Assembly: GCF_900129495.1 (NCBI RefSeq)
Contig: NZ_FQVX01000001.1
Span: 868,001-932,000, forward strand
Source: Geodermatophilus nigrescens
GTDB lineage: Bacteria > Actinomycetota > Actinomycetes > Mycobacteriales > Geodermatophilaceae
Reading direction: 5' to 3'
Length of the DNA stretch: 64,000 bases
Shown piece by piece: positions 60,093 to 62,056 of the stretch; positions within the stretch are counted from its first letter, which is position 1, and each line of letters begins with the position of its first letter. Below the pieces are notes generated by a model. That model searched no databases. It was given only the letters and a program-made list of their open reading frames with translations, and had not been told where the DNA came from. Both the position numbers and the translations under genes were made by a program.

Positions 60093-60626
60093 TCAGCCGC
60101 CGGGCCGGGCCACCGCGGTGACCGCGGCCAGCACCGCGGGGTAGGCGTCGCGGGCCAGCCGGCGCAGCTCGTCGTCGGTGCGGTCCTGGATCGGGTGCGG
60201 CACGAGCACGTGCGGCACCGCCAGGCCGAGCGCGCGCGACTGGGCGGTCGCGGCGTCGGCGAACTCCGACGAGGCGAGGAAGACCCCCACCACGCCCCGG
60301 GCCTCGAGGTCGGCGATGTCGTGCACACTGCACGACGTGCACGAGCCCTAGTCGGCCAGTGCCTCGATGACCACCTCGCAGTGGGTGGCGATCTCGTGCC
60401 GCAGGTCCACCGGCGCCGGCCGGGCGAACGTCGGCTTGCGGTAGCGCAGGGTGCGCACGCCGTCGGCCCGCAGCAGCGCCTCGAGCTCCTCGACGACGAC
60501 GTCGCCGCGGCTCTTGGAGATGTCGAGCAGGCCGACCGTCCGGCCCTCCAGCGACGCCGGCCGCGCGGTCAGCGCGCGCTCCGCCGGCCGCCGCTCCGAC
60601 GTCGGGTCGAGCAGCACCCGTGCCAT
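60093..60626 (-). CDS. UGSC-family selenoprotein with selenocysteine encoded by UAG (residue 93)
   Basis: The frame is open from the ATG at 60626 (GAGGAGG upstream; overlapping the previous stop) to a TAG at 60350-60348, and continues to 60093. Reading TAG as selenocysteine gives 177 residues with the family-defining motif U93-G-S-C, then TSCSVHD, where other members have Sec (UGA) or Cys. Homology continues on both sides of the TAG, so it is not a chance read-through. An 8-bp stem with a 10-nt loop begins 3 nt after the TAG. The biological role of UGSC proteins is unknown; redox function is likely. Confidence 0.85.
60319..60344 (-). promoter_or_regulatory. SECIS-like stem-loop directly after the UAG
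   Basis: On the minus strand TCGTGCAC (60344-60337) pairs perfectly with GTGCACGA (60326-60319) around a 10-nt loop. The helix starts 3 nt after the UAG (60350-60348) and puts the loop 12 nt downstream of it, about where bacterial SECIS loops sit. An alternative TGCAC-GTC-GTGCA hairpin overlaps it. Confidence 0.65.
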
Positions 60627-62056
60627 CACGCCTCCTCGATCGGGACGGTGACCGGCGTGCTGCCGGTCGCGCCGCTGGCCCAGCCGCCGATGACGGCCGA
60701 GAACATGCCGGCCGGGCCGCCGGCGTAGGTGAGCAGGAGCCCGCCGGGTCGGAACTTCGGCAGCGGCCGGTCGAGCAGCGCGTCCGGCATCCCCTCGGCG
60801 ATGCCGAGGGCGCCGCGCCGCAGCTCGTCGGGCTGCAGGACCAGCAGCGGCTCCAGCTCGGCGAGCAGCCGCTCGCGGTCCCACCCGGCCTCCCGGAACA
60901 CCCGGCCGTGCTCGGGGCCGAGGACGACGAGGGCGTCCATGCCGAGCGCGGCCTTGGGGTGCCCGACGGTGCGCAGCACCAGCGCGAGCGTGCGGGCCAG
61001 CGACTCCGGCGTCCGGCTGAGCTGGTCGAGGAACGGGACGAGCCCGGCGCCGGCGAAGACGGTGAGCGCGGAGCCCGGGACGCCGCGGGACTCCGCGAGC
61101 GGCGGGAAGGGGCGCAGGCCGTCGTCGGCCTCGGCGAAGCACCAGCCGACCTTGCCGGGGTTGCCGAGGGTGGCGCGGTCGACCTCGCCCGGCCGCCCGC
61201 CGCCGACGTTGCGGACGACGAGCTGCAGCGCGCGGCCGATGGTCGCGTTGGCCCGGTCGCCCTGGCCGAGCACGTTGATGCCCGAGTTCATCCGCAGCCG
61301 CCGGGTGACCGGGCCGTTCACCACCAGCACCGGCCCCGCCGACCAGGTGGTGGCCAGCACGCCGTGCAGCGCGAACTCGTCGCGGCAGGCCGCCTCGACC
61401 GCGGCCAGCACCACCGGCAGGTGCTCGGGCAGGCACCCGGCCAGGACCGCGTTGACCGCGACCTTCTCCACCGTGCACTCGACGAGGTCGGGCGGGACGA
61501 CGGCGACCACCTCGTCCGGCGCCCGGCTCGTGCCGCCGAGCATGCGCAGCACCCGCTCCTCGGTGGGCGGCACGCAGGGCAGGCCGTCGCTCCAGCCGCG
61601 GGCGTACACCGCCTCGACGTCGTCCTCCAGGTCGGCGAGCTCGACCCGGCGGGCGGTGAGCACCGAGCCGCCGTAGCGGCGGGCCAGCTCCTCCTCGACG
61701 CCCCACTCGACGCTGCGCGACCCGCAGCCCGGCCGGTGCTCGGGCAGACCGGGCCCGAGGTCCTCGACGCCGGTGAAGGTCTCCCAGGCGCTGCGCAGCC
61801 AGCCCTCGACGCGGCCGGTCTCGGCGCCGCCGTCGACGCGCAGCAGCGTGGGCACCGTCTCGATCCGCAGCCGCCAGCTCACCTCGAGCTCGCGGTCGTC
61901 GGTGACGGGCAGCCCGGCGGGGAAGCCCGGGTCGTCCTGGCTGACGACGGTGAGCGCGCCGGCGCCGGCCAGCTGCTGCAGCACGGGCTCGACCAGCGCG
62001 CACGTGGGGCAGTCGCGCTTGACGACCGCCACGAGTCCGTCGGGCACCGGTGCCAC
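60626..62056 (-). CDS. Thioredoxin-like/UGSC-associated fusion protein
   Basis: A 476-residue protein. The N-terminal about 100 residues form a thioredoxin-like domain with C16-P-T-C19. The rest is a large domain without recognised catalytic motif, containing WSDGLPCVPPTEERVLRML and GDRANATIGRALQLVVRN. It is encoded directly upstream of the UGSC selenoprotein with an overlapping stop/start (TGATG), so it is a likely redox partner. GTG at 62056 follows a TGACAC-GG-GTGTCA palindrome. Confidence 0.8.
   Translation of the reverse strand: MAPVPDGLVAVVKRDCPTCALVEPVLQQLAGAGALTVVSQDDPGFPAGLPVTDDRELEVSWRLRIETVPTLLRVDGGAETGRVEGWLRSAWETFTGVEDLGPGLPEHRPGCGSRSVEWGVEEELARRYGGSVLTARRVELADLEDDVEAVYARGWSDGLPCVPPTEERVLRMLGGTSRAPDEVVAVVPPDLVECTVEKVAVNAVLAGCLPEHLPVVLAAVEAACRDEFALHGVLATTWSAGPVLVVNGPVTRRLRMNSGINVLGQGDRANATIGRALQLVVRNVGGGRPGEVDRATLGNPGKVGWCFAEADDGLRPFPPLAESRGVPGSALTVFAGAGLVPFLDQLSRTPESLARTLALVLRTVGHPKAALGMDALVVLGPEHGRVFREAGWDRERLLAELEPLLVLQPDELRRGALGIAEGMPDALLDRPLPKFRPGGLLLTYAGGPAGMFSAVIGGWASGATGSTPVTVPIEEA

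Follow-up and report, generated by a model that had tools for sequence, protein, structure and literature searches.

The window, a stretch of 64,000 nucleotides from Geodermatophilus nigrescens, carries on its minus strand a gene for a UGSC-family protein (60093..60626) that begins at ATG 60626 and ends with TGA 60095-60093. Translation of this frame gives 92 residues, a TAG at 60350-60348, a further 84 residues and the terminal TGA, so two in-frame stops altogether, and the product has 177 residues if the TAG is read as selenocysteine (Sec). With the TAG read through, the protein matches the UGSC Pfam family PF24696 over residues 5-170 (E = 3.4e-41; 141.7 bits against a cut-off of 25; positions 2-171 of the 172 in the profile) and the NCBIfam model NF041046 with 143.3 bits (cut-off 125). 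The 84 codons 3' of the TAG keep a coding-type base composition, with a third-position GC of 0.99. An earlier note on this DNA had described a frame open from ATG 60626 except for the TAG, with UGSC homology continuing on either side of it, and both descriptions agree with our translation and profile matches.

The TAG (60348..60350) lies in the motif D-[TAG]-G-S-C, that is (U/C)-G-S-C with TAG in place of U/C. Our comparison of UGSC sequences revealed a stop directly before G-S-C in all 22 that bear one, namely the window gene, 17 other TAG-bearing relatives fetched from the same family and four TGA-bearing sequences of another family, and TGC at the motif position in five stop-free relatives (L017-L021); the search pattern failed to match loci L022, L023, L024 and L036, which were left out of this count. 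When the proteins are aligned, as the note had proposed, the U/C of the relatives falls on the window TAG, which confirms that the gene carries TAG exactly at the Sec/Cys position of the motif. Since the same TAG recurs at this position in the 17 fetched relatives, a sequencing error at 60348-60350, which the note had thought would undo its reading, is excluded.

Directly upstream, on the same strand, lies a gene for a conserved partner protein of 476 residues (60626..62056), and the two genes share a single base, the A that closes its TGA and opens the UGSC ATG (TGATG). Of 30 other UGSC loci searched by tblastn, 29 gave a homologue of the partner, whether the UGSC gene there has TAG, TGA or no stop; the exception is L023. 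The partner has a weakly thioredoxin-like N-terminus; neither of its best Pfam matches, TraF (E = 0.072) and Thioredoxin_2 (E = 0.33), reaches the cut-off. For the UGSC protein itself the predicted structure has a mean pLDDT of 89.2 and gives loose flavodoxin-like or Rossmann-like matches to the PDB (best TMq about 0.5), and a PDB sequence search returned a sole match at E = 0.43. The C-terminal Sec domain of GrdB (glycine/betaine reductase) aligns with UGSC around UGTCTRC (hhalign probability 84%, E = 7.1e-6), and NF041046 also matches GrdB (L223:1495-2805) at E = 6.6e-5, under cut-off. Unlike GrdB, the UGSC protein is short, stands alone and has a different partner gene, and the likeness is one of sequence profiles. 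We tentatively suggest that the UGSC protein may be a thiol/selenol redox enzyme.

Selenocysteine machinery and a SECIS-like hairpin

We searched the genome (G000; 4.74 Mb in 11 contigs) for the components that would be required to read the TAG as Sec. A single tRNA-Sec, at C2:1245533-1245624 and with 66.6 bits, exceeds the Rfam gathering score of 47, alongside seven weaker matches that all fall under it, and ARAGORN reads its anticodon as CTA (CUA) while printing the label 'tRNA-Pyl'. The tRNA belongs to a selD / tRNA-Sec / selA / selB cluster in which SelD (389.2 bits, cut-off 125), SelA (413.8 bits, cut-off 267.9) and SelB (277.6 bits, cut-off 242.25) all score over their NCBIfam cut-offs, and none of the three genes has an internal stop. 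The tRNA-Sec(CUA) and the three sel genes that the note had suggested looking for are thus all present and clustered. Further, FdhA (formate dehydrogenase) of the same genome has a TAG at its Sec site (C2:176626-176628). We selected 37 ORFs of the window by their base composition; four end in TAG, 33 in TGA and none in TAA. Because TAG still ends ordinary ORFs, the recoding of UAG would be context-dependent, with no genome-wide reassignment, and the context must separate the two meanings of the codon.

A SECIS-like hairpin (60318..60336, minus strand) follows the TAG of the UGSC gene. It consists of eight base pairs (60336-60329 with 60325-60318) around a GUG loop (60328-60326), the helix starting 11 nt and the loop, which begins GU, 19 nt after the TAG. 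In gapless alignments of UGSC (22 rows, 16 distinct) and FdhA (28 rows, 23 distinct) the 8-bp helix occupies identical columns, the hairpin in the FdhA gene of G. nigrescens itself included. All 128 cells are paired in the 16 distinct UGSC rows (shuffled mean 96.1%); two of the eight pairs vary, and at one of them C-G is replaced by G-C in three distinct rows, a compensatory double change. For FdhA, 97.3% of 184 cells are paired, five being unpaired, and 11 cells are changed on both sides. The covariation score was reached by 1 of 500 shuffles for UGSC and by 0 of 500 for FdhA, with shuffles that ignore relatedness. Pairs changed on both sides were matched by 234 of 500 shuffles for UGSC and 500 of 500 for FdhA; for further pair types the respective figures are 234 and 420 of 500, and the better controls are the cells paired and the covariation score rather than the counts of double changes. 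Sliding the helix partner by 1-3 columns lowers pairing to 4.7-57.8% for UGSC and 26.6-58.7% for FdhA.

Single-sequence folding energies are weak (z = -1.74 for UGSC and -0.52 for FdhA), and the extended minimum-energy fold of UGSC is modestly better than shuffles, 14 of 200 of which reach its energy. It is this extended fold that starts 3 nt after the TAG, where the earlier note had placed its stem-loop; the helix supported by the comparison starts at 11 nt, so that the stem-loop holds in the form of the extended fold and its start does not hold for the conserved helix. The UGSC gene would therewith have what is looked for in a bacterial SECIS, a hairpin shortly after the codon.

Codon and anticodon among relatives

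To place the TAG among relatives, we surveyed UGSC in 118 genomes, with rows counted by eye, and obtained 72 rows from 43 genomes: 49 with one TAG, six with one TGA and 17 without a stop. The rows with TAG all come from inside the family of the window and the rows with TGA all from family f3; the position of the TAG was read in 18 of the 49 TAG-bearing rows, the window included, and is the U position in all 18. The FdhA survey (TIGR01553, 70 genomes, rows likewise counted by eye) gave 40 rows with one TAG, from 38 family genomes that all have tRNA-Sec(CUA), and 16 rows with one TGA, all from outside the family; the five UCA genomes of the family in this TIGR01553 sample had no FdhA match at threshold. 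The codon before the Sec codon of FdhA (alignment A2, columns 4-6) is ATA in 19/19 TAG rows and ATT in 9/9 TGA rows. TIGR01591 was set aside as a poor model for FdhA here, its listed matches in CUA genomes being without stops while TIGR01553 found the TAG copies; one TIGR01591 match in a UCA genome of the family (G032) is a row with one TGA.

Of the 112 family genomes searched, 108 gave a tRNA-Sec match, and the anticodon, read in all 108, is CUA in 101 and UCA in seven (genera g5, g8 and g10), where a congener that also carries a UCA copy (G005, below) is counted as CUA. Outside the family, the 24 tRNA-Sec loci read are all UCA. From UCA to CUA tRNA-Sec the anticodon loop changes from CUUCAAA to CUCUAAA, together with one stem-pair change. 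A corrected, looser tRNA pattern matched the own genome alone among 396 genomes drawn from the phylum, and a second, weak tRNA-Sec match in G225 (L255) turned out to be a tRNA-Ser. For a SelA tree, 56 loci were given, 41 had a SelA match and 40 were used after one short row was dropped; the 21 CUA rows form one clade with support of 100/100, and three UCA rows of the family lie outside it. With all CUA rows of the tree in a single clade, the switch to CUA occurred once in the family, on the stem of the CUA genera. Codon and anticodon have changed in step, TAG going with CUA inside the family and TGA being used outside it, where each tRNA-Sec read is UCA.

Genes, anticodon, codon, conserved hairpin and a joint switch across relatives are thus all observed. 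Since the TAG stands where relatives carry Sec, and a matching tRNA-Sec(CUA) and the enzymes are encoded in the genome, the codon is almost certainly Sec; the UAG at 60350-60348 would very probably be translated by way of SelD, SelA, SelB and tRNA-Sec(CUA) to give the 177-residue UGSC protein, and the earlier note's interpretation of it as a Sec codon is supported by each of the genomic tests. By analogy with the known bacterial pathway, SelD would supply selenophosphate, SelA would convert seryl-tRNA-Sec(CUA) to Sec-tRNA-Sec, and SelB would bring the latter to the ribosome and bind the hairpin with its loop 19 nt 3' of the UAG. At this site the insertion of Sec at UAG would compete with RF1, where at UGA the competitor would be RF2, while a UAG without such a hairpin would still terminate translation. 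Compared with the canonical bacterial UGA system (SelA/SelB/SelD, tRNA-Sec UCA, SECIS), the components are the same and the hairpin columns are shared by TGA and TAG genomes; the differences lie in the anticodon, here CUA, the codon, here UAG, and presumably the release factor.

Other readings of the TAG fit these observations poorly. A decaying pseudogene, in which a nonsense mutation or sequencing error leaves a 92-residue fragment, has in its favour that TAG remains a normal stop in this genome, but exactly one TAG is found in 49/72 UGSC rows from 118 genomes, at U in the 18/18 read, the part downstream of it is in frame and conserved, and FdhA has the same pattern, so we consider a pseudogene highly improbable. 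It would be equally surprising if the UAG were suppressed as cysteine or serine, through a partly converted CUA tRNA-Sec or through insertion of Cys at selenium shortage. Cysteine evidently works in the fold, given the 17/72 UGSC rows without a stop and the TGC in the five read, and tRNA-Sec is first charged with serine (according to a passage of PMC10778597); yet the complete selA-selB-selD set is retained, and FdhA retains its TAG in 38/38 CUA genomes examined.

Pyrrolysine, which the 'tRNA-Pyl' label of ARAGORN might bring to mind, seems to us scarcely credible. The label is given for a CTA anticodon, but the tRNA scores 66.6 bits, over cut-off, with the Rfam tRNA-Sec model, adjoins selA, selB and selD, and closely resembles the UCA tRNA-Sec found in sister genera, the differences lying mainly around the anticodon arm; lysine is not what relatives encode at the site itself, where they have TGA or a Cys codon. 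Sec thus remains the reading that we adopt for this UAG.

The note had further referred to work by Mukai and colleagues (2016), in which UAG-programmed selenoprotein synthesis was reportedly described in Geodermatophilus and Blastococcus. As far as this could be checked, it is borne out by passages of PMC5330540, which, citing Mukai et al. 2016 (Angew Chem), report three Geodermatophilaceae genomes with tRNA-Sec CUA and TAG-coded FDH and UGSC-motif selenoproteins, and also mention a TAG-coded AhpC in this family. Going by these passages, UAG-programmed Sec, UGSC proteins included, is already published for Geodermatophilaceae and the window gene would be a further member, from the same family, likewise with tRNA-Sec CUA and TAG in FDH and UGSC-motif proteins, and by a mechanism without difference. 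Natural use of UAG and other codons for Sec is briefly mentioned in parts of PMC8124441 and PMC10778597, and the passages available from PMC13188914, PMC9312934 and PMC7609411 do not describe natural UAG-Sec. Judged against these partial sources, and with overlap with Mukai 2016 possible throughout, what is added here would be the family-wide joint switch, the three sister genera that still have UCA and the common hairpin geometry, together with the additional UCA tRNA-Sec of one congener and an example from beyond the family. Our literature search, at the level of titles and abstract openings, found no report of a genome with two tRNA-Sec or of UAG-Sec in Coriobacteriia.

Possible further changes of Sec codon in a congener and a Coriobacteriia genome

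Two tRNA-Sec matches over threshold were found in only two of the 112 family genomes, G140 and the congener G005. Both G140 copies are CUA; they lie on contigs C25 and C168 of the draft genome and may reflect the duplication of a contig in the bin. G005 has a tRNA-Sec(CUA) at C11:15836 and a tRNA-Sec(UCA) at C17:1173-1263. About 315 nt after the latter starts an AhpD-like gene with a TGA at 1870-1872 (tRNA and gene together C17:1173-2157; loci L048 and L129), at a position that is Cys in 29/29 fetched homologues, and a 7-bp hairpin with a GUU loop lies 17 nt after this TGA (energy z = -0.44). The protein matches an NCBIfam model for a peroxidase-related enzyme with 112.6 bits (cut-off 81.8) and, below cut-off, NF041238, which is named for a CFYU motif. 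FdhA and UGSC of G005 have TAG. SelA, SelB and SelD lie on the C11 stretch examined, and a search of C17 for the same three gave no match.

Bases 40-60 kb of C17 are native, being matched in 25/25 other genomes of the genus searched, and at 3-850 we read by eye a transposase-like frame. On plasmids the AhpD-like protein has distant homologues only, all under 60% identity, and the DNA around the UCA tRNA matches short stretches on five plasmid records. The two of these plasmids examined, Arthrobacter pYA7-1a (L267) and Tsukamurella plasmid 17 (L268), have selB, selA and selD around the stretch that matches the tRNA-Sec region of G005, and such plasmids could be a vehicle for the transfer of Sec systems. 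Both also carry NrfD and 4Fe-4S subunit genes, and pYA7-1a carries a formate dehydrogenase gene. These data suggest that G005 apparently uses two Sec codons, UAG and UGA; the island with the UCA tRNA lies at a contig end, and a mis-assembly is possible.

Beyond the family, a pattern scan of contigs with a gap of 31-33 had a sole match, L217; the scan missed the family of the window because the window tRNA has a gap of 30. L217 is on a contig titled Coriobacteriia MAG (JAUNNF010000009.1; contig C6 of G160), and its tRNA-Sec scores 64.2 bits with anticodon CTA. SelA, SelB and SelD of G160 are all over their NCBIfam cut-offs. GrdA, a glycine reductase selenoprotein, has TAG at what we take, from GrdA proteins, to be its Sec site, and GrdB has TAG before GTCTRCG (loci L223 and L259); read through, both exceed their NCBIfam cut-offs. 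Among 80 genomes searched, G160 included, a tRNA-Sec match was obtained for 34 relatives, and the copy read is UCA in all of them. The SelA of G160 is 32-33% identical to that of the genus of the window, so it can hardly be a transfer of the system of this genus. A scan for short-loop hairpins found none after the TAG of GrdA, where the sequence folds no better than shuffles; GrdB has a 5-bp hairpin (loop GGU) 18 nt after its TAG and likewise folds no better than shuffles (z = 0.96). G160 would thus apparently be an independent switch to UAG-Sec, known from a single MAG with weak or absent hairpins.

Five matches on viral contigs were checked as well: L219-L221 hold no tRNA there, and those at L218:6364-6457 and L222:1928-2017 are CTA tRNAs that score as generic rather than tRNA-Sec. 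The latter two are possibly amber suppressors.

From the congener and the Coriobacteriia genome we consider it somewhat probable that the choice of Sec codon is still moving. G005 would use UAG in FdhA and UGSC with its native CUA tRNA and UGA in the AhpD-like gene by means of an acquired UCA tRNA served by SelA, SelB and SelD from another contig, and the G160 lineage would independently have arrived at UAG for its glycine reductase selenoproteins. These two cases are apparently the newer part and more surprising than the window gene, and they need confirmation. If real, they would show that the codon was exchanged on more than one occasion and that a single cell can use two Sec codons side by side, and the steps of codon reassignment would then be open to direct test. 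A natural before-and-after series for such an exchange is provided by the pairs of UAG and UGA orthologues, which have their hairpin at the same place. For annotation, reading TAG as a stop alone truncates the FdhA and UGSC proteins, and ARAGORN labels the tRNA 'Pyl'. The genome of the window, and by comparison 101/108 examined genomes of its family, are hereby placed in a UAG-selenocysteine code.
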